Of a stretch of 34,058 nt of DNA, positions 1,570 to 31,630 are shown piece by piece; position 1 is the stretch's first letter, and the number at the start of each line of letters is the position of its first letter. Both the position numbers and the translations under genes were made by a program. The DNA lies in assembly GCA_016938595.1 (NCBI GenBank), contig JAFGUJ010000072.1, positions 1 through 34,058 of the forward strand, written 5' to 3'. This DNA is from Campylobacterales bacterium. GTDB taxonomy: Bacteria > Campylobacterota > Campylobacteria > Campylobacterales > Sulfurimonadaceae. A model generated the notes under the pieces. That model saw only the letters and a program-made list of their open reading frames with translations, ran no database searches and was not told the origin of the DNA.

Positions 1570-2988
1570 GTGATGGTGATGAAAGCGAGGGCGGCTGCAG
1601 GGATGTTTTTGGTCATTGCGGCGGTCGAAATCCTGGGAGCAGAGGGCAATGCGGGGGGTGTCGAAGGGCAGCTGAGGGTTTACTCCATGACCGAAGACAA
1701 CCATGACCCTCTTGTGGATTACCGCGGCACGGCAGTCGGGGGGAAGATCCTGTACCGGACACCGGATTGGAACAATGTTCAGGGTGTCGTAGGGGTCTAC
1801 ACCACCCATTTTCTGCATGATAATGTGTCGGCATCGAGAGTGGAGCCTTTGGCATCCGGCAGAGGATCGCGATATGTCGCCGGGCTGGTCGACACTACCG
1901 ATCTTGACGCCAACAACGTTACGGGGATTGGCGAAGGGTATTTGCACTGCCGTATTGAAGAGGGTGAACTTATGATCGGACGGATGAAACTGGACACCCC
2001 TTTTATCAATCCCCAGGATGGCCGGATGATTCCGACGTTTGTGCAGGGCGCCTGGGCGAAGAGAACGCTCGGAGAGGGTTGGCTGATGCAGGGTGGATAT
2101 ATCAACGCTTTCTGGAACCGCAATACCCCCCAATGGAAAAGTGTGGAAGATTCTCTCGGTTACGGATACGAGATGGGGAACAGCTCGCTGGAGAGTGCGG
2201 TCCGGGGAGACTACAAAGGCAACACTTCCTCCAACGGGGTTTTTATCGGGAATCTGCGCTATCATCCCTCTGCAGAATGGCGGTTTGAAGTGTGGGACTA
2301 TTACGTCGAAAACATATTCAATCTGGGGTATGCCGAAATGCTTGCGGCACATCCTATCGGAGATGCCCGGCTGTTGATGGGAGGGCAGATCATTCATCAG
2401 TATGAAGTCGGCGAGGGGGGCAACGGGGAAGACAATCTGCCCGATGCGACCGATGGGCAAAAAGCAAAGTCATACCTGCAAAAAGGTGAAAAAAGCACCA
2501 CCTACGGAGCAAAAATCGCGATGGAATACGACGATTCGCGGGTCGCGCTGGCGTATAACAGAACAACCGATCAGGGGAGGTTTCTGTTTCCGCGCGAGTG
2601 GGGAAAAGAGCCCCTGTATACGTTTCAAAAACGGGATCGGAGTGACGGGAGCGGCGATTGCGATGCATGGCTGGTGAGTCTTGAACATAATTTCAAAAGG
2701 CAGGGGCTGGCAGGGTTCACTCTGATGGCGGGGTATGGAGAATACCGCAAAAGCGATCCCAAAGAGTGGAGGTACAACAAATACGGTACTCCTTCTTATG
2801 CGCAATGGAATATAGACCTGCTTTATCGATTCAGCGGTCCGCTAAAGGGACTGCGTGCGGAATATCTGGCGGTTCGCAAAGTGGCCAGAGGCGAAACGTA
2901 CCAGGTTCAGGGGCCGGCAGAATACAATTTCATTTTTCGAAAAAACGGGATGACACTCCACAATTTTATGCTCAATTACGATTTTTGA
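1570..2988 (+). CDS. OprD-family outer membrane porin
   Basis: Signal peptide, then DNNVTGIGEGYL…MIGRMKLDTPFINPQDGRMIPTFVQG and terminal F; matches OprD-type porins of this phylum and resembles the second porin at 23631. Confidence 0.82.
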   Translation: MMVMKARAAAGMFLVIAAVEILGAEGNAGGVEGQLRVYSMTEDNHDPLVDYRGTAVGGKILYRTPDWNNVQGVVGVYTTHFLHDNVSASRVEPLASGRGSRYVAGLVDTTDLDANNVTGIGEGYLHCRIEEGELMIGRMKLDTPFINPQDGRMIPTFVQGAWAKRTLGEGWLMQGGYINAFWNRNTPQWKSVEDSLGYGYEMGNSSLESAVRGDYKGNTSSNGVFIGNLRYHPSAEWRFEVWDYYVENIFNLGYAEMLAAHPIGDARLLMGGQIIHQYEVGEGGNGEDNLPDATDGQKAKSYLQKGEKSTTYGAKIAMEYDDSRVALAYNRTTDQGRFLFPREWGKEPLYTFQKRDRSDGSGDCDAWLVSLEHNFKRQGLAGFTLMAGYGEYRKSDPKEWRYNKYGTPSYAQWNIDLLYRFSGPLKGLRAEYLAVRKVARGETYQVQGPAEYNFIFRKNGMTLHNFMLNYDF

Positions 2989-21585: not shown

Positions 21586-21614
21586 TTAACCGAGGCAACG
21601 GAATCGGTTATAAT
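21586..21614 (+). promoter_or_regulatory. Candidate sigma-70 promoter TTAACC-N17-TATAAT
   Basis: TTAACC 21586-21591 and TATAAT 21609-21614 with 17-nt spacer upstream of the histidine kinase. Confidence 0.5.
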
Positions 21615-22854
21615 GACCCAAATTTATTTGGGGAAATTGACCTTGGAATCCTGGCTGCAGCGTCGTTTGGCAAATCTTTCACTTCGCGAACTTCATTTCT
21701 ATACGGTCGTCTTTATCCTTTTTTTTACGGTTGTTTTTGCCTCTTTGCTGGTCTACGATGAATACCGCCAGTTTGCCATGGCCGCCGATACGACTCTGTT
21801 CGGGATACGCGGCGACCCCCATGCGCTCAAAGGGCGGCTGATCAAGATCATCGTTGAAATCTCGACGCTTGCCCTGATCCTTTTTGGTTTTATTTTCGGG
21901 ATCACCAAAGTCGTCAACAGCATGATTTCCAGGGATATGGAGCGGTTCATGCAGTTTTTTGAAGCGGTCCATACGAAGGCGAAACCGATTCCGTCTGATG
22001 AACTTTATTTCACCGAATTCAAGCGGATGGCGGGGTATGCCAATGAGATGGCCGATACCATTCAGGAACAAAAAAAGTCACTCAGGATGCTCAACGCCGA
22101 TCTCGAAGAACGGGTCAAACGAAAAACGGCGGCGCTACAGCTCAAAAACGAGGCGCTGGAGATCGAACAGCACTTTTCGCAGGGGCTGCTGGAATCGCAT
22201 AAACAGTTCATCCGTTATGCGATCCACGAGACCCATACCCCCCTTTCGGTTATTATGGCCAATATCGAACTTTTCAGCATGAATGAGGGGCGCAACCGCT
22301 ACCTGGCAAAAATCGAAGCGGCGGTCAAAAACATCTTCAGCATTTACGACGATTTGAGCTATCTGGTCAAAAAAGATCAGATCGACTATCCCAAAAAACC
22401 GATCGATCTTGGAGAGTACGTCGAGAAGCGGCTCGAATTTTTTGATGAGGTGGCTCATTTCTCCAACCACTCTTTGGAATACAACCACCCCGAACTGGCG
22501 TCGTGGATCCAGTTTAATGAAACGAAACTGCAGCGGGTGATCGACAACAACATTACCAACGCGATCAAATACACCAAAAGCGGCGAGCCGATTCGCGTCG
22601 GGGTGGCATGCAACACAAGCTCTTGTCGGTTCTGGGTTGAGAGCCGGTCGCAAAAGATTCATGACGAGCAAAAGATTTTCGAGGCATACTATCGGGAACG
22701 AAAAAAGAGCGACGGTTTCGGGCTGGGGCTGAGTCTGGTTAAATCGATCTGTGACGAAGACGGCGTGGGGATCACGATCACTTCGGACAATGATGTGACC
22801 CGTTTTGAATACCGTTTTGAAAAAGGAGTCGTCGTTGAAAATTCTCCTGCTTGA
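21613..22854 (+). CDS. Membrane sensor histidine kinase
   Basis: Two TM segments, RYAIHETHTPLSVIMANIELF H-box, DNNITNAIKYTKSG N-box, SDGFGLGLSLVKSICDEDG G-box; true start uncertain (ATG 21613 or a downstream TTG). Confidence 0.87.
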   Translation: MTQIYLGKLTLESWLQRRLANLSLRELHFYTVVFILFFTVVFASLLVYDEYRQFAMAADTTLFGIRGDPHALKGRLIKIIVEISTLALILFGFIFGITKVVNSMISRDMERFMQFFEAVHTKAKPIPSDELYFTEFKRMAGYANEMADTIQEQKKSLRMLNADLEERVKRKTAALQLKNEALEIEQHFSQGLLESHKQFIRYAIHETHTPLSVIMANIELFSMNEGRNRYLAKIEAAVKNIFSIYDDLSYLVKKDQIDYPKKPIDLGEYVEKRLEFFDEVAHFSNHSLEYNHPELASWIQFNETKLQRVIDNNITNAIKYTKSGEPIRVGVACNTSSCRFWVESRSQKIHDEQKIFEAYYRERKKSDGFGLGLSLVKSICDEDGVGITITSDNDVTRFEYRFEKGVVVENSPA

Positions 22855-23497
22855 AGACGAAACGATGCTCAGCGAAGCGATCAACGAATATCTGACGTCT
22901 CAGGGGCACCGCGTGACATTGTTCGAAGACGGTTCCGAGGCGCTGGAAACATTAAAACACGATGCGTTTGATCTGCTGGTTCTCGATATCAATGTCCCCG
23001 GAATCGACGGCCTCGATCTGCTCGAAAAGCTCCATGAACTCAAAATCCGTACCCCCGCCATCTACATCAGCGCTCTCGTCGACATCGAGGGGATCAGCCG
23101 CGCGTACGATCTGGGGTGTTACGACTACCTCAAAAAACCGTTTCATCTTAAAGAGCTCGCTCTGCGGATCGACAAGGTGATGCAAAGCTGCACGATCCCC
23201 CAGAGCCATCTGCGCCTCTCCAAAAGCTACAGCTATGATGCATCGACGTCGACATTGCTGTGTGAGAACGTAACACAGCCTCTCACCAAACGGCAGCTTC
23301 AGATCATCGATCTGTTGGCCCGTAACCGGGGGAGGGTTGTCGATTTCGATCAGTTTCGCAGCTACATATGGGACGAAGAATACGTCGACAACGCGACGAT
23401 ACGGGCTGAAGTGAGCCGTCTGAAGAAATCGCTCAAGGAGGATTTCATCCAGAATATCCGCTCACTGGGCTACATGATCGATATTCCCCGCTCCTAG
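22835..23497 (+). CDS. OmpR/PhoB-family response regulator
   Basis: LKILLLEDETMLSEAINEYL…LLVLDINVPGIDG…KKPF and winged helix; TTG start 22835 behind AAAAGGAG. Confidence 0.9.
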   Translation: MKILLLEDETMLSEAINEYLTSQGHRVTLFEDGSEALETLKHDAFDLLVLDINVPGIDGLDLLEKLHELKIRTPAIYISALVDIEGISRAYDLGCYDYLKKPFHLKELALRIDKVMQSCTIPQSHLRLSKSYSYDASTSTLLCENVTQPLTKRQLQIIDLLARNRGRVVDFDQFRSYIWDEEYVDNATIRAEVSRLKKSLKEDFIQNIRSLGYMIDIPRS

Positions 23498-23569
23498 GCG
23501 TTACTTTTTTACCCATAATCTTTTTTTTCTTTTTCGTTTCTTCCCATTCTGTTTTCGGATTTTCTTTTT

Positions 23570-23601
23570 GCTACGTTCATGCTACGTTTTGTTCTCATAA
23601 T
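23570..23601 (+). promoter_or_regulatory. Candidate response-regulator binding direct repeat plus -10 upstream of porin
   Basis: GCTACGTT at 23570-23577 and 23581-23588 (11-bp phase), CATAAT at 23596-23601. Confidence 0.6.
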
Positions 23602-23630
23602 GACAGTGTGAAAAAAAAGAAGGAGTGAGA

Positions 23631-24962
23631 ATGAGAGGTAAAGTTTCTCTGTCGCTTTTGGCATCGGCGTTGGTTGTCAACGCGTTTGCCGCGGATGATT
23701 TGGCAGGAATGTTCAAGGAAGGGAAAGCGAGCGGACAGATCCGCGCTTTCTATATTGACCGGGATTATTCGGGGATTGCATCGGTGCATCGCGATGCGAC
23801 AGCGATCGGCGGATATCTGAAATACGAAACGGGTGCTTGGAACGGTCTGAGCCTCGGTGCGGCGTTCTATACGTCCAACGGTCTGTTTTTGGGTGACAAA
23901 ACGACAGCGACCGGAACGGACAATCCGAAAGTTGATCCAACACTGCTTGGGAAAAGCAACGATTCGGTTACCTATCTGGGCGAAGCGTATGTGCAGTACA
24001 AAAACGGCAACACGACGTTCAAGGGCGGACGCCAGAAGCTCGATACCCCGATGGCGGGAAGCGACGATGCGCGGATGCTCCCGAACCTGTTTGAAGCGTA
24101 CGTCCTGAGCAATACCGATATGAAAGACATGACGCTCATCGCGGCCCACGTGACGAAATTCGCGCAGGGGACGTTCGGACGTGCCTATAACGGCGGCGTT
24201 TTGAGCGTCACGTCGGGGTATTCTTTGGTGAATTCAAAAGACTATGTCGGTGAATTCGTCGATATGGGAAGCTATGCTATCGGACAAAACACGGACGGCG
24301 TCAGCGTCGCTGCGGCGGTCTACACGGGGATTCCGGGGCTGAAACTCCAGTTGTGGGACTATTATGCCCACGATATTCTCAACGCGATCTATGCCGAAGC
24401 CAATTACGGCTGGTCGATGGGCGGCGGGATTTCCCCGTATGTCGCGGCGCAGTATATCCGTGAAGACAACATCGGTAACGATTATGCAGGCGAGGTGGAA
24501 AGCAATTTCTACGGCGCGAAAGCCGGGGCAAAAATCGGCAACTGTGACGTGTCGGTCGCTGTTTCGCACAACTCGTCGGAAGCTGACGCCACCATCGGCG
24601 GCGGAACGATCACTCCGTGGGGTGGGATGCCGGCTTATACGCAGGGGATGGTGACCCGTCACCAGTTCATGTCGGGAACGGACGCGTGGAAAGTGGCCGC
24701 CAGCTATGACTGGAAAGATTACGGAATCGGCCTGAACACAGGTGTGTACTATGTCGAATTTGATATGGGCGACATGAACGGATATTCCACGGAAACCGGC
24801 TCAGTTGCCAGCGAAGCGGGATTCGATATCATATACAATCCCCAAGCGGTCAAAAATCTTCAACTGCGCTTCCGTGGGAATTTTCCGCGTGAGTATCAAG
24901 AGAAGCCCGGACAGGATATGGACTGGGATGAATATCGCGTTATCGCGAACTACAACTTTTAA
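23631..24962 (+). CDS. OprD-family outer membrane porin
   Basis: Signal peptide; GRQKLDTPMAGSDDARMLPNLFEAYVLS; C-terminal aromatic residue; AAGGAG 6-11 nt upstream of ATG 23631. Confidence 0.84.
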   Translation: MRGKVSLSLLASALVVNAFAADDLAGMFKEGKASGQIRAFYIDRDYSGIASVHRDATAIGGYLKYETGAWNGLSLGAAFYTSNGLFLGDKTTATGTDNPKVDPTLLGKSNDSVTYLGEAYVQYKNGNTTFKGGRQKLDTPMAGSDDARMLPNLFEAYVLSNTDMKDMTLIAAHVTKFAQGTFGRAYNGGVLSVTSGYSLVNSKDYVGEFVDMGSYAIGQNTDGVSVAAAVYTGIPGLKLQLWDYYAHDILNAIYAEANYGWSMGGGISPYVAAQYIREDNIGNDYAGEVESNFYGAKAGAKIGNCDVSVAVSHNSSEADATIGGGTITPWGGMPAYTQGMVTRHQFMSGTDAWKVAASYDWKDYGIGLNTGVYYVEFDMGDMNGYSTETGSVASEAGFDIIYNPQAVKNLQLRFRGNFPREYQEKPGQDMDWDEYRVIANYNF

Positions 24963-24975
24963 AGGAGGTTGAAGA

Positions 24976-25290
24976 ATGAAACAGGAATTGGTAGATGTGA
25001 TCAAAAATGATCCTGATTATCTGCGCCTTATCCGCGAACGAAGCCGTTTCGCGTGGACATTGACGATTACGATGCTGGTCATCTATTTCGGATTTGTATT
25101 GGTGATCGCGTTTGATCCCTCGTTGCTCGGGACACCCCTGTTTGAGGGTTCCGTGACGACGATCGGGATTCCCATCGGGATCGGCGTCATCATCAGTGCC
25201 TTTATTCTGACGGGTATTTATGTCCGTCGTGCCAACGGGGAGTTCGATGAACTCACCAACCGTATCAAAGCCAAAGCAAAGGGAGAGTAA
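24976..25290 (+). CDS. DUF485 (YjcH-like) membrane protein
   Basis: [41 protein letters not shown]; upstream of ActP-type symporter; AAAGGAGGT SD. Confidence 0.88.
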
Positions 25291-26954
25291 TGAAAACGGT
25301 ACTTTTGACCCTCCTGGCCGCCTCGTATGCCTTCGCGGGTGATGCTCTGGGCGGAGAAGTGGAGAAGCAGGCGCTGAACATGTCGGCGATCATCATGTTC
25401 CTGATTTTCGTCGGTGCGACGCTGGGGATCACCTATTGGGCCGCCAAGCGGACCAAAACGGCGAAAGATTTCTACACCGCCGGCGGCGGGATTACCGGTT
25501 TTCAAAACGGTATGGCGATCGCGGGGGACTACATGTCGGCCGCATCGTTTTTGGGGATTTCGGCCCTCGTGTATGCCAAAGGGTATGACGGCCTGATCTA
25601 TTCGATCGGGTTTCTCGTCGGATGGCCTATCATTCTGTTCATGATCGCCGAGCAGCTTCGCAACCTCGGTAAGTATACGTTTGCGGACGTTGCATCGTAC
25701 CGTTTGCAGCAGACACCGATCCGTACACTGGCGGCATTCGGTTCGATTCTGACGGTCGTACTGTACCTGATCGCACAGATGGTAGGTGCCGGTAAACTGA
25801 TCCAGCTTCTGTTCGGTCTGGATTATGAAGTGGCGGTTATCCTCGTCGGTGTATTGATGATCCTCTACGTTACGTTCGGGGGAATGCTCGCAACGACATG
25901 GGTTCAGATCATCAAGGCGTTCCTCCTTCTTTCGGGTGCGACGTTTATGGCGGTTGCCGTTATGGCCCACTACAACTTCAACTTCGAAACGTTGTTCGCA
26001 ACGGCGGTAGAGATGAAAGAGACGGCCGCTATCATGGCTCCTGGCGGATTGGTAAGCGATCCTATTTCGGCGATTTCACTCGGTATTGCTCTGATGTTCG
26101 GTACGGCGGGTCTTCCGCACATCCTGATGCGCTTTTTCACCGTCAGCGATGCCAAAGAGGCGCGTAAATCGGTTTTCTATGCGACAGGGTTCATCGGATA
26201 TTTCTATATCCTGACGTTCATCATCGGTTTCGGTGCGATCGTTATGGTGTTCCAGAATCCACAGTATCTTGATGTGGCGAAAGCGGCGATCGACGGCGGC
26301 GCTCCGATCCTCGGCGGCGACAACATGGCGGCGATCCACCTCTCTCACGCAGTGGGCGGAGACTTCTTCCTCGGGTTTATCTCGGCGGTAGCGTTCGCGA
26401 CGATCCTGGCGGTCGTCTCGGGGCTCACACTGGCTGGGGCGTCGGCGATTTCGCATGACCTGTATGCATCGGTTCTGCGCGCCGGACGTGCGGATGGACT
26501 GATGGAGATGAAAGTTTCGAAAATCGCGACGGTCGTTTTGGGTATCGTGGCTATTTTCCTGGGGATTATTTTCGAAGACCAGAATATCGCGTTCATGGTC
26601 GGATTGGCGTTTGCGATCGCGGCGAGTGCCAACTTCCCGGTATTGTTCCTCTCCATGTTCTGGTCGAAACTGACCACACGCGGTGCATTGCTGGGCGGAT
26701 CGCTCGGTTTGGCTACGGCAGGGGTTTTGGTGATCCTGGGACCGACCGTATGGGTGGACGTACTGGGTAATGCGGAAGCGATCTTCCCGTACAAATATCC
26801 GGCATTGTTCTCGGTAACGGCGGCGTTCGTCGGTATCTGGTTCTTCTCGATCACCGACAAGAGCGATAACTCCCGCCGTGAGATCGAAGCATTCGAAGCA
26901 CAGAATATCCGTTGCCAGACCGGTATCGGAGCTGAGGGTGCCGTTGAACATTAA
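25290..26954 (+). CDS. actP: Cation/acetate symporter-type sodium:solute symporter
   Basis: SSS family: [41 protein letters not shown]; follows DUF485 with 1-nt overlap. Confidence 0.88.
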
Positions 26955-26962
26955 ATTGGAAC

Positions 26963-26986
26963 GCCGGGGGAATCAAATCCCCCCGG
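26963..26986 (+). other. Intercistronic stem-loop GCCGGGGG…CCCCCCGGC
   Basis: GC-rich inverted repeat after actP stop, no T tract. Confidence 0.55.
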
Positions 26987-27014
26987 CCGCGCTTGCCGCT
27001 ATGGCACTGAAGCT

Positions 27015-27030
27015 TGCCCCTTTCGGGGCA
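27015..27030 (+). other. Intercistronic stem-loop TGCCCC-TTTC-GGGGCA
   Basis: Perfect 6-bp inverted repeat. Confidence 0.5.
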
Positions 27031-27061
27031 GAGTTCTCACAACTGTTATCAGGAGCTTCCT

Positions 27062-28885
27062 TTGAGTCTCTTTGACCAAAAAGCACTTTTGATGTCTATC
27101 CATCCGTTTGATCTGCTCAGCGAGCGAATGATCGAAAAGCTGATGACACAGATGGATATTGCCTACTACCCGACCGATACAGTGCTGATAGCCCCGAGGG
27201 TAAGGGCAGAATCTCTTTACATCATTATCAAGGGGATCGTCAACGAAACCATCGACGGCGAACTCCAGAACGTCTACGGCGAGCGCGACAGCTTTGACGC
27301 CAACTCGCTCATATACGGAAACACCCAAAGCACCTTTACGGTCGCCGAAGATCTCATCTGCTACTGCCTCCCCAAAGAATCCTTCCTCAACCTTCTCCAG
27401 GATGCCGAGACGTTTCAAAACTACTTTATGCAGGATTTCATCACCAAACACCAGCGCCTCAAAGAGCGCCAGCACCAGAACGATCTGACCCCGTTCATGG
27501 TGGCACGGGTCGATGAGATCTACCTGCACGCCCCCTGCATCGTCGATGCCGGTCTCTCCATCCGTGAAGCGCTCCGGGAGATGACACGGACCGGCGCCAA
27601 AGTGATTTTGGTCCGTCATGAGGGGGCGACGGGGATTGTGACCGATACCAACCTGCGCGAGAAAGTTCTGCTTGCCGAAAAGAATATGGGCGATCCGATC
27701 GGGGAGATTGCGACGTACGGCCTGATCATGGTCGAGCGGAGCGATTTTTTATTCAACGCGCTGCTTCTATTCACCAAGTATGGCGTCAAGCGCCTCGTTG
27801 TATCGGAAGGGGAGAAGATTGTTGGGATTCTCGAACAGCTCGATCTGCTGAGCCATTTCGCGAACCACACCCATCTCATCGCGGCATCGATCGACCGGGC
27901 GACCTCTATCGACGAACTCGTCAACATCGAACGCTCCCTGATGCAGGTGATCCGTTCCCTGACCTCCAAGGGGGTGCGGGTCCGCTACGTTTCCAAACTG
28001 GTCAGTGAGCTCAACGCCAAGGTGTACCGCAAGGTTTTCGAAATGGTCCTTCCCGCCGGGCTTCAGCAGCGCTGTGCATTGATCGTGATGGGGTCCGAAG
28101 GGCGCAGCGAGCAGGTGCTCCGCACCGATCAGGATAACGCCCTGATCATCGCCGATGGGGAGGACGAGGCCGTGTATGAGCCCTACATGCAACAGCTGAA
28201 TGCCAATCTGACCCGCCTGGGCTTTCCCGAATGCAGCGGAAACGTCATGGTGAGCAACCCCTACTGGCGCCGAACCGTCACGGGATACAAGAAGCAGATT
28301 TCCGAGTGGATCGATACGCTGGACGAACAGAGCCTTCAGTCTCTATCGATTTTTCTCGACGCGCAGTGTGTTGCGGGGGATGAAGCGCTGCTGAGTGCGT
28401 GTACCACGTATCTGTTCGAGCGGTTCGAGGGGCGCAGCGATGTTCTGGCCCATCTGGCCAAAGCAGCGCTCGCTTTTGAGACGCCGCTTTCTCTCTTCTC
28501 GGGATTTGTCCTGGGGCATGCCGGGCACGAAAGCGAGCTCGACATTAAAAAAGGGGGGATTTTCGCGATCGTCCACGGCATCCGGACGCTGGCGTTGGAA
28601 CACAAGATTCAGACGACGAATACGACCGAGCGGATCAAGGAGCTCAACAACATCGGCCTCTTCGACAAACGGTTCGCGAGCGAGCTGATCGAGGCGTACG
28701 ACACGCTGCTCAGTATCCGTCTGCGCGCCATGCTCTCCCAGAAGCAGGACTTTAAAGCACAAAATTACGTCAATCCGAAACTTCTGGGAAAAGCCGACCG
28801 CGATCTGCTCAAAGATGCCTTTAAAATCGTCAACACGTTCAAAAAATTTCTGACCTACCACTTCCATCTGGGGATGGTCGTGTAA
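27062..28885 (+). CDS. DUF294 nucleotidyltransferase-like protein with cNMP-binding and CBS domains
   Basis: N-terminal cyclic-nucleotide-binding-like region, CBS pair, GSEGRSEQVLRTDQDNALI GlnD-like motif; TTG start 27062 after AGGAGC. Confidence 0.84.
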   Translation: MSLFDQKALLMSIHPFDLLSERMIEKLMTQMDIAYYPTDTVLIAPRVRAESLYIIIKGIVNETIDGELQNVYGERDSFDANSLIYGNTQSTFTVAEDLICYCLPKESFLNLLQDAETFQNYFMQDFITKHQRLKERQHQNDLTPFMVARVDEIYLHAPCIVDAGLSIREALREMTRTGAKVILVRHEGATGIVTDTNLREKVLLAEKNMGDPIGEIATYGLIMVERSDFLFNALLLFTKYGVKRLVVSEGEKIVGILEQLDLLSHFANHTHLIAASIDRATSIDELVNIERSLMQVIRSLTSKGVRVRYVSKLVSELNAKVYRKVFEMVLPAGLQQRCALIVMGSEGRSEQVLRTDQDNALIIADGEDEAVYEPYMQQLNANLTRLGFPECSGNVMVSNPYWRRTVTGYKKQISEWIDTLDEQSLQSLSIFLDAQCVAGDEALLSACTTYLFERFEGRSDVLAHLAKAALAFETPLSLFSGFVLGHAGHESELDIKKGGIFAIVHGIRTLALEHKIQTTNTTERIKELNNIGLFDKRFASELIEAYDTLLSIRLRAMLSQKQDFKAQNYVNPKLLGKADRDLLKDAFKIVNTFKKFLTYHFHLGMVV

Positions 28886-29499
28886 TGTTTGAATCTCTCA
28901 AGCGCAGCTGGAACCGCAGGGGGCTCAGGGACGAACACTATGCATCGCTGTTTGAACCGTACGAGGGGGACGAAGTCGTCGTATTCGATACCGAAACGAC
29001 GGGGCTCAATTCCAAGCGTGACGAGATTCTCAGTATCGGCGCGGTGAAAGTGAAAGGGGACCGGATCCTCACGTCGCAGAGTTTTGAGGTTTTCCTCAAA
29101 CCTGACCGGACGATCAGCACTGAGAGCATTAAAATCCATCATATCCGTCCGTGTGATCTGGAACATGCGGTCGAGCCGTTAGAGGGGGTGAAAAAGTTTT
29201 TAGAATTCATAGGGAACCGCCCGCTGGTGGGCTACTATCTGGAGTTTGACATGGCGATGGTAAACCGCCTGATCAAGCCGTGGCTGGGAATAACCCTTCC
29301 CAACCGTCAAGTCGAGGTTTCAGGGCTTTATTTTGATAAAAAAATTGCCTTGATTCCTCAAGGAAACATTGATTTACGCTTCGATACAATCCTCCGTGAG
29401 CTTAGAATTCCGAGGATGGGGCAGCATAACGCGCTCAACGATGCGATTATGACCGCAATGGTCTACATAAAACTACAACACACCATTAAACTACATTAA
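28885..29499 (+). CDS. 3'-5' exonuclease, DnaQ-like (DEDDh)
   Basis: EVVVFDTETTGLNSKRDEILSIGAVKV, VGYYLEFDMAMVN, GQHNALNDAIMTA. Confidence 0.86.
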   Translation: MFESLKRSWNRRGLRDEHYASLFEPYEGDEVVVFDTETTGLNSKRDEILSIGAVKVKGDRILTSQSFEVFLKPDRTISTESIKIHHIRPCDLEHAVEPLEGVKKFLEFIGNRPLVGYYLEFDMAMVNRLIKPWLGITLPNRQVEVSGLYFDKKIALIPQGNIDLRFDTILRELRIPRMGQHNALNDAIMTAMVYIKLQHTIKLH

Positions 29500-29511
29500 G
29501 GAGACATTGCC

Positions 29512-31473
29512 ATGAGCGATACCGTAAAACCGATTTTTCATCCGAACCGTGAGTTTGCCAAAAACGCGCGTATCAAAAATATGTGTGAATACAACGAACT
29601 TCAGACGTGGGCCGAAGAGGACTATGAAGGGTTCTGGGGACACTTTGCTAACGAAAAAATCGATTGGTTCCAACCGTATACGCAGGTACTGGATGAGAGC
29701 AACGCGCCGTTCTATAAATGGTTTGTCAACGGAAAACTGAACGTATCGCATCAGTGTATCGACCGCCATCTGGCTACCCGCAAAAACAAAGCGGCGATCA
29801 TCTTCGAAGGGGACAACGGTGACCAGCGGATCATCACCTACCGCGAACTCTCGTATGAAGTGAACAAAACGGCCAACCTCCTCAAAACGCAGTTCGGCAT
29901 CGCCAAAGGCGACCGCGTCGTCATCTACATGCCGATGATCCCCGAAGCGGCGTTCATGATGCTCGCGTGTGCCCGTATCGGTGCGATCCACTCGATCGTA
30001 TTCGGCGGGTTCTCGGCTGAAGCGCTCCGCGACCGTATCATCGATGCCGAAGCGAAACTCGTCGTCACGGCCGACGGTGCCTACCGCAAAGGAAAGCCTT
30101 ACCTCCTCAAACCGGTTGTGGACGATGCGCTTAGCCACGGGTGCGAATGTGTCAAAGCGGTGTGTGTCGTCGAGCGCAACGGCGAGGACATCAACTGGGT
30201 TGCGGGACGCGATTACTCCTACAACGAACTGATCAAAAGCCAGCCGAACAAATGCGAGCCCGAGATGATGGATGCGGAAGATCCGCTCTTTTTGCTCTAC
30301 ACCTCCGGTTCGACCGGCAAACCCAAAGGGGTCCAGCATAACAGCGCGGGATACATCCTCTGGGCGCAGATGACGATGGAATGGGTCTTTGATGTCAAGG
30401 AAAACGATACCTACTGGTGTACGGCCGACATCGGATGGATCACCGGGCACACCTACATCGTCTACGGACCGTTGGCGATGGGGGCGACGACCGTCATGTT
30501 CGAGGGGGTTCCGACCTATCCCGACGCCGGACGCTGCTGGAAAATGGTCGAAGAGTACAAAATCAACCAGTTCTACACCGCACCGACCGCGATCCGCGTT
30601 CTGCACAAAACTGGTGCCGACGAGCCGGCCAAATACGATCTTAGCAGCCTGAAAGTCCTCGGAACCGTCGGCGAGCCGATCGACCCGCCGGCATGGAAAT
30701 GGTACTACGAAGCGGTCGGCGGCGGAAAATGCGCCATCGTCGATACCTACTGGCAGACCGAGACGGGGGGACACATCGTCTCTCCGCTGCCGGGTGCGAC
30801 TCCGATCAAACCGGCCTGCGCGACCTTCCCGCTTCCGGGTATCATCGCCGAGATCCTCGATCCTCAAACGGGCGAAAAAGTACCGGCGGGAGAGGGGGGC
30901 TACATGTGTGTCACCCGTCCGTGGCCGTCGATGATCCGCGGCATCTGGGGCGATCCCGAGCGTTTCGTGAAATCGTACTTCGGCGACGTCAAAAAAGAGG
31001 GTAAACCGGTCTACTTCACGGGTGACGGTGCGATCTACGACGAGCAGGGCTACATCACGATTACCGGCCGTACCGACGACGTCATCAACGTTTCGGGGCA
31101 CCGTATGGGAACCGCCGAAGTCGAAGCGGCGTGTAAAAAACACCCCAACGTCGCCGAAGTCGCCGTCGTCGGCAAACCGCACGACATCAAAGGTGAGGGA
31201 ATCTTCGCCTACATCGTCCTCAAAAGCGAAGACACCGTCGGTGAAGAGATGGAGATGGTCAAAGAGATCAACAAGGTCATCATGAAAGAGATCGGCAACA
31301 TCGCGATCTGCGACGACATCGTCTTCGTACCGGGACTGCCGAAAACGCGCTCGGGCAAAATCATGCGCCGCATCCTCCGCTCCATCGCCAAAGGCGAAGC
31401 GATCACGCAGGATATCTCGACCCTCGAAGACCCAAGCATCGTCGCGACGATCGAAGCGAAAGTCAAAGGGTAA
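29512..31473 (+). CDS. acs: Acetyl-CoA synthetase
   Basis: [54 protein letters not shown]. Confidence 0.96.
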
Positions 31474-31491: not shown

Positions 31492-31524
31492 TCCCGCTCC
31501 GGCGGGAACTTCTCTGCCTTTTTT
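31492..31524 (+). terminator. Possible terminator of acs
   Basis: TCCCGC-TCCG-GCGGGA stem with T-run 11 nt further on. Confidence 0.45.
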
Positions 31525-31630
31525 AAACCTTGACGTTTACCTGATTGTTCAAAATTGCTGGATGGTTTCTGTTGCGTAAAAATCGTATCGGATTTGTGTC
31601 TTTGGAAGGATGGAAAACGGAGTATGAAGG

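Follow-up and report, generated by a model that had tools for sequence, protein, structure and literature searches.

A two-component system and its predicted acetate-scavenging operon in Sulfurimonadaceae and other Campylobacterales

Introduction

PhoB is an OmpR-family response regulator (RR) whose operator, the pho box, is an 11-bp direct repeat that replaces the -35 element at a fixed distance from the -10. The acs-yjcH-actP operon of Escherichia coli is not known to have a local two-component system (TCS) or a porin, DUF294, or DnaQ gene. Here we analysed a 34,058-nt stretch of DNA (the window) from a sulfur-oxidising Campylobacterales bacterium of the Sulfurimonadaceae (contig JAFGUJ010000072.1 of assembly GCA_016938595.1, which is 89% complete), in which a sensor histidine kinase (HK) gene and an OmpR-type RR gene stand ahead of a block of genes that includes actP and acs, and we conclude that this locus is very probably a real and apparently undescribed acetate switch.

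The CrbS/CrbR system (MxtR/ErdR) of Pseudomonas and Vibrio controls acs and actP through a kinase with SLC5 symporter and STAC domains and a LuxR-type regulator with an inverted-repeat ACTU motif, and a chemoreceptor is a predicted target of a system of this type in P. fluorescens (PMC5715377). In the phylum to which the window belongs, the OmpR-type RR PceP of Sulfurospirillum binds CTATW direct repeats overlapping the -35 in electrophoretic mobility shift assays (PMC7755780), and BumS of Campylobacter jejuni is described as lacking the residues for autophosphorylation and acting only in dephosphorylation (PMC11796366). Whether these sulfur-oxidising Campylobacterota live autotrophically or mixotrophically turns on acetate use, and the literature searched yielded no regulator of acetate use in these organisms; nor did the search, which reached few subscription journals, return a published description of the TCS-operon switch reported here.

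Results

The gene block runs on the + strand from the HK and RR through an OprD-family porin, a DUF485 protein, the ActP symporter, a DUF294 protein, and a DnaQ-like exonuclease to acs and a terminator-like hairpin (Table 1). An initial annotation of the same DNA had listed these eight genes on one strand, and domain and profile matches recovered all of them. Its proposal that the HK and RR are coupled to the rest of the cluster, which it had made dependent on their co-occurrence in related genomes, is well supported by sequence comparison of about 100 genomes across the order: the pair was found repeatedly with the cluster, in synteny, close to actP, and with a conserved promoter box.

Within the genus, the whole block is syntenic wherever a contig spans the region. 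Our survey of the order covered 80 regions around DUF294 genes and found the arrangement HK-RR-OprD-DUF485-ActP-DUF294-DnaQ-Acs in many families (f1, f4, f6, f7, f18, and others), together with variant orders such as HK-RR-DUF4212/SSF-DUF294-DnaQ-DUF485-ActP in f9, Acs with HK-RR-DUF485-ActP-DUF294-DnaQ in f16, and HK-RR-DUF485-ActP-Acs in Sulfurospirillum and similar loci. Among named organisms, the genes are carried by Hydrogenimonas, Sulfurovum, Sulfurospirillum, Malaciobacter halophilus, Arcobacter vandammei, and a Nautiliaceae metagenome-assembled genome. Among 219 genomes of the order, 73 had both an RR orthologue and ActP, 16 had ActP only, 14 had the RR only, and 116 had neither (Fisher odds ratio 38, p ~1e-27, phylogeny not corrected for), and the two genes lay less than 12 kb apart in 64 of the 73 genomes with both.

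The gap between the RR and porin genes holds the direct repeat TGCTACGTTCA-TGCTACGTTTT, in an 11-bp register and near-invariant in the genus. The pattern TGCTA-N7-GCTA was fixed from the genus and then counted in loci that had been retrieved by protein, not by DNA. The stretch from the RR to the first transport gene contained it in 22/22 loci of the genus, 39/41 of the order, and 18/18 named loci, or 79/81 in total, a small number of the named genomes being counted in the order set as well and the counts not being corrected for phylogeny. One of the two loci missing the box, L118, has it further downstream. Ten other repeat spacings combined gave 1/810, and shuffled gaps gave a mean of fewer than 0.05 boxes per set.

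The -10 statistics were taken from the 77 of 82 boxes that were fully alignable. In these the -10 hexamer (consensus TATAAT) starts exactly 27 bases downstream of the box's first T, its key positions, which had not been used for selection, are A in 98% and T in 97%, and no -35 is evident in the aligned promoters besides the box itself. Such a layout resembles the direct-repeat operators, with a register of about 11 bp near the -35, of OmpR/PhoB-type systems, and together with the fixed -10 distance it predicts binding and PhoB-like activation by the RR. Autoregulation of the HK-RR pair through the box was rejected, as none of 58 HK upstream regions holds one.

At six loci whose TCS lies apart from the operon (L069, L100, L114, L124, L127, and L139), the box still precedes the porin or DUF485 gene, and in the genomes with a detached TCS the RR orthologue was found elsewhere, about 10 kb off in G126 and G214. 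In L100 and L139, large genes ahead of the porin gene (720 and 290 aa) match a CrbS/CrbR pair in length, but they were read as encoding an efflux pair and rejected as such a system; the TCS proper of these loci lies about 10 kb from the porin. A box also precedes separately placed or separately promoted acs genes at eight loci (L062, L064, L086, L115, L116, L122, L161, and L173), and no other target of the box was seen as often as ActP operons and acs. In the window's own assembly, which is 89% complete, a pattern search found the strict box once only, ahead of the porin gene at 23631; relatives add a few sites, among them aldehyde dehydrogenase genes in three Arcobacter-like loci (L146, L147, and L237).

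Several further observations concern similar sites. An sCache_2 chemoreceptor gene (L288) is preceded by a box, and box-like sites lie at two other chemoreceptor genes (L284 and, in a loose form, L281); the two of these three proteins that were scanned have sCache_2/dCache_2 domains, and the arrangement suggests that, in some species, chemotaxis and the acetate regulon are coupled. A second recurrent box of the genus, TGCTAyACTrTTGCTAyACT with a -10 like TACAAT, stands in many members of the genus (ten loci) before the gene for a conserved 113-aa protein without a Pfam match, and its regulator may be the window RR or a paralogue. Paralogous TCSs at six loci (L054-L056 and L146-L148) have a kinase of about 630 aa with a different N-terminal region; the paralogous RRs of L054-L056 share about 60-63% identity with the window RR, and some of the loci with a paralogous TCS bear a box before an aldehyde dehydrogenase or TAXI-type binding protein gene. 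At L262, in G004, a member of the genus with no clear orthologue of the HK, a box-like site lies 54 nt before a biotin-carboxylase-like gene.

In other families the kinases are long forms with a periplasmic sCache_2/dCache_2 domain, to which the nearest solved structures include 4EXO, 4K08, and 5G4Y, domains reported with pyruvate, acetate, and propionate (PMC5062169). By this likeness the sensor of the relatives belongs to the C2/C3-carboxylate group. The window kinase and its clade are without Cache, with about 30 residues between two transmembrane (TM) helices predicted at residues 29-47 and 79-97. A tree of the kinase core needs about six label changes, and its branches with good support require at least four for the short form; since the loss in f6/g43 (L129 and L131) is nested among Cache carriers, it is independent of the loss in the window family. 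The two TM helices given for the HK by the initial annotation were borne out, but its start at ATG 21613 was not. TTG 21643 is probably the start, because the ATG overlaps the genus-conserved -10 TATAAT and homologues begin at the equivalent of 21643.

Table 1. Features of the HK-to-acs region, in window coordinates
Feature	Coordinates	Strand	Notes
HK-RR probable promoter	21586..21614	+	TTAACC-17-TATAAT, kept across genus; no RR box
Sensor histidine kinase, short two-TM, no Cache	21643..22854 (listed ORF 21613-22854)	+	HisKA + HATPase_c
OmpR/PhoB-type response regulator	22835..23497	+	Response_reg + Trans_reg_C; phospho-acceptor D51
Predicted RR box, direct repeat TGCTACGTTCA-TGCTACGTTTT, 11-bp period, at expected -35 place	23569..23590	+	
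-10 hexamer CATAAT	23596..23601	+	Fixed +27 from box first base
OprD-family outer-membrane porin	23631..24962	+	PF03573 E=3e-29
DUF485 (YjcH-like) membrane protein	24976..25290	+	PF04341 E=1e-33
ActP cation/acetate symporter	25290..26954	+	PRK09395 943 bits, cut-off 750
Interspersed extragenic hairpin repeat, actP-DUF294 gap	26957..27038	+	Outside switch; possible attenuator
cNMP-CBS-nucleotidyltransferase protein	27062..28885	+	cNMP, CBS, DUF294, DUF294_C
DnaQ-like 3'-5' exonuclease	28885..29499	+	PRK09145 287 bits, cut-off 189
acs, acetate--CoA ligase	29512..31473	+	TIGR02188 978 bits, cut-off 725
Intrinsic-terminator-like hairpin + T run, operon end	31501..31525 (hairpin 31501-31518)	+	

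Beyond the terminator-like hairpin comes a tRNA-Gln on the opposite strand, and two conserved neighbours, a peptidyl-prolyl isomerase gene and a QueH-like gene (read from the sequence without a Pfam scan), lie upstream in divergent orientation. A second OprD-family porin (window 1570-2988, PF03573 E=7e-16) is distant from the acetate operon and has no box.

The element between actP and the DUF294 gene is an extragenic repeat, interspersed in the genome, that spans about 75-80 nt and has three stems (GAACGCC...GGC, GCTNGCCGCTATGGCACTGAAGC, and GCCTC..GAGGC). Its pattern matched 14 times in its own genome with up to three mismatches, against 0 for a control pattern, with copies on seven listed contigs (C155, C186, C203, C204, C208, C19, and C143) and others, and further repeat loci were found in relatives (L041, L043, L044, L046, and L047). 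The copy in the window had no Rfam match, compensatory changes were seen in 9 of 19 predicted pairs, and the repeat occupies different operon joints in different members of the genus.

Discussion

We consider it likely that the block is an acetate-scavenging operon under its own TCS, with the RR activating it through the box. A separate, box-free promoter would transcribe the HK and RR genes, and the phosphorylated RR would bind the 11-bp direct repeat that replaces the -35 upstream of the porin gene, contact sigma-70 in the manner of PhoB, and so turn on one transcript. That transcript would supply the porin for outer-membrane entry, a role suggested by the position of its gene, DUF485-ActP for inner-membrane symport, and acs for activation to acetyl-CoA, and would also include the DUF294 and DnaQ-like genes. 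In relatives the kinase probably detects a periplasmic C2/C3 carboxylate through sCache_2; in the window family, where this domain was lost, the cue would have to arrive through the TM helices, from the cytoplasm, or by way of a partner protein (ActP, for example).

A number of results weigh against this mechanism or narrow it. Ten ActP genomes, of families f11 and f14, have no RR, and their ActP is more distant. The box is missing before some separate acs genes (L114, L129, L138, and the second copy in L122), and 18 of 19 lone DUF294-DnaQ pairs are box-free, so that DUF294-DnaQ would be passengers or conditional members of the regulon; the box was rejected as an element of lone DUF294 genes (1/19). 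The hairpin repeat after actP could lower read-through to acs. The 14 genomes with the RR and no ActP imply that the RR regulon is wider than acetate uptake. Finally, the DxGxG G1 box of the kinase (window 22640-22740 region) was found in 0 of 100 family kinases.

The same 14 genomes are what might be seen if the TCS senses some other cue, such as redox, envelope state, pyruvate, or propionate, and the acetate genes are just one of its outputs. The boxes before aldehyde dehydrogenase and TAXI-type binding protein genes in Arcobacter-like loci fit that explanation, as does the loss of the sensor domain in the window family, but the predominance of ActP operons and acs among the box targets and the carboxylate-group Cache domain of the relatives argue against it, and we regard it as possible though rather unlikely.

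The degenerate G1 box leaves the canonical HisKA set of H, N, G1, and G2 boxes incomplete in all family kinases and, on this sequence criterion, makes ordinary autokinase activity uncertain. It also lends some weight to an explanation in which the TCS truly regulates the operon, but mainly as a sensor phosphatase or repressor, with the signal turning the operon off; a phosphatase-only sensor of short-chain fatty acids is known in the phylum from BumS/BumR (PMC11796366). However, the phospho-acceptor His (HETHTP) and the N and G2 boxes are conserved in the family, and a box that takes the place of the -35, with no good -35 present, has the geometry of an activator site, which makes an off-switch unlikely in our judgement. 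More doubtful is the idea that the Cache-less, G1-less kinase takes its cue from ActP, a product of its own target operon acting as co-sensor, and that it may act chiefly by regulated dephosphorylation. That the HK-RR pair and the operon are neighbours through history only, the box serving another regulator, is highly improbable: paralogous OmpR-type RRs do adjoin similar GCTA repeats (L054-L056), but the RR co-occurs with ActP and mostly lies close to it, and the box sits in the gap between RR and operon and never before the HK.

The analysis provides a candidate regulator, a predicted operator whose half-site, spacing, and distance to the -10 are given, and a list of candidate targets. The repeated absence of Cache, with kinase core, RR, and operator kept, amounts to a natural experiment on two-component function without a sensor domain.

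Comparison with known systems

The locus has the features of an OmpR/PhoB-type TCS, with an RR of REC and winged-helix domains, a HisKA/HATPase_c kinase, and adjacent genes. It resembles PhoB and the pho box in RR family, repeat register, and -10 geometry and differs from them in half-site and regulon, and it resembles the E. coli acs-yjcH-actP operon in bringing acs, DUF485 (YjcH), and ActP together.

PceS/PceP, which serves tetrachloroethene (PCE) respiration, shares with it an OmpR-type RR, the phylum, and repeats in an 11-bp register overlapping the -35, but PceS has seven TM helices, its targets are unrelated, and its functional repeats are 22 bp apart (PMC7755780); the window HK has two TM helices and an acetate gene neighbourhood in place of a PCE regulon. 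BumS/BumR has in common with it the phylum, a response to short-chain fatty acids (predicted for the window system), and, to judge by the G1 box, a sensor short of residues for autophosphorylation. BumS is cytoplasmic, senses through a PAS domain, and responds to butyrate and branched fatty acids, and the account consulted (PMC11796366) describes no linkage to an ActP operon, whereas the window HK gave no Pfam match to PAS and has two TM helices instead of a cytoplasmic form.

There is a likeness in targets to CrbS/CrbR, with control of acs and actP here predicted from the conserved box and synteny and with a box before a chemoreceptor gene in some relatives, matching the predicted chemoreceptor target in P. 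fluorescens. The wiring nevertheless differs, as the initial annotation had anticipated. The window HK has only HisKA and HATPase_c domains and two TM helices, with ActP the sole SSF protein found and no SLC5-fused kinase in its own assembly, a provisional result given its 89% completeness, and the RR is OmpR-type with an 11-bp direct rather than an inverted repeat. The only LuxR-type (GerE) protein of that incomplete assembly, on C106, lies in a locus that resembles type I secretion genes and was rejected as a CrbR candidate. A porin inside the operon is a feature of the window system, unlike CrbS/CrbR, and if ActP does serve as co-sensor, two separate proteins would achieve here what CrbS does by fusion of an SLC5 symporter to a kinase.

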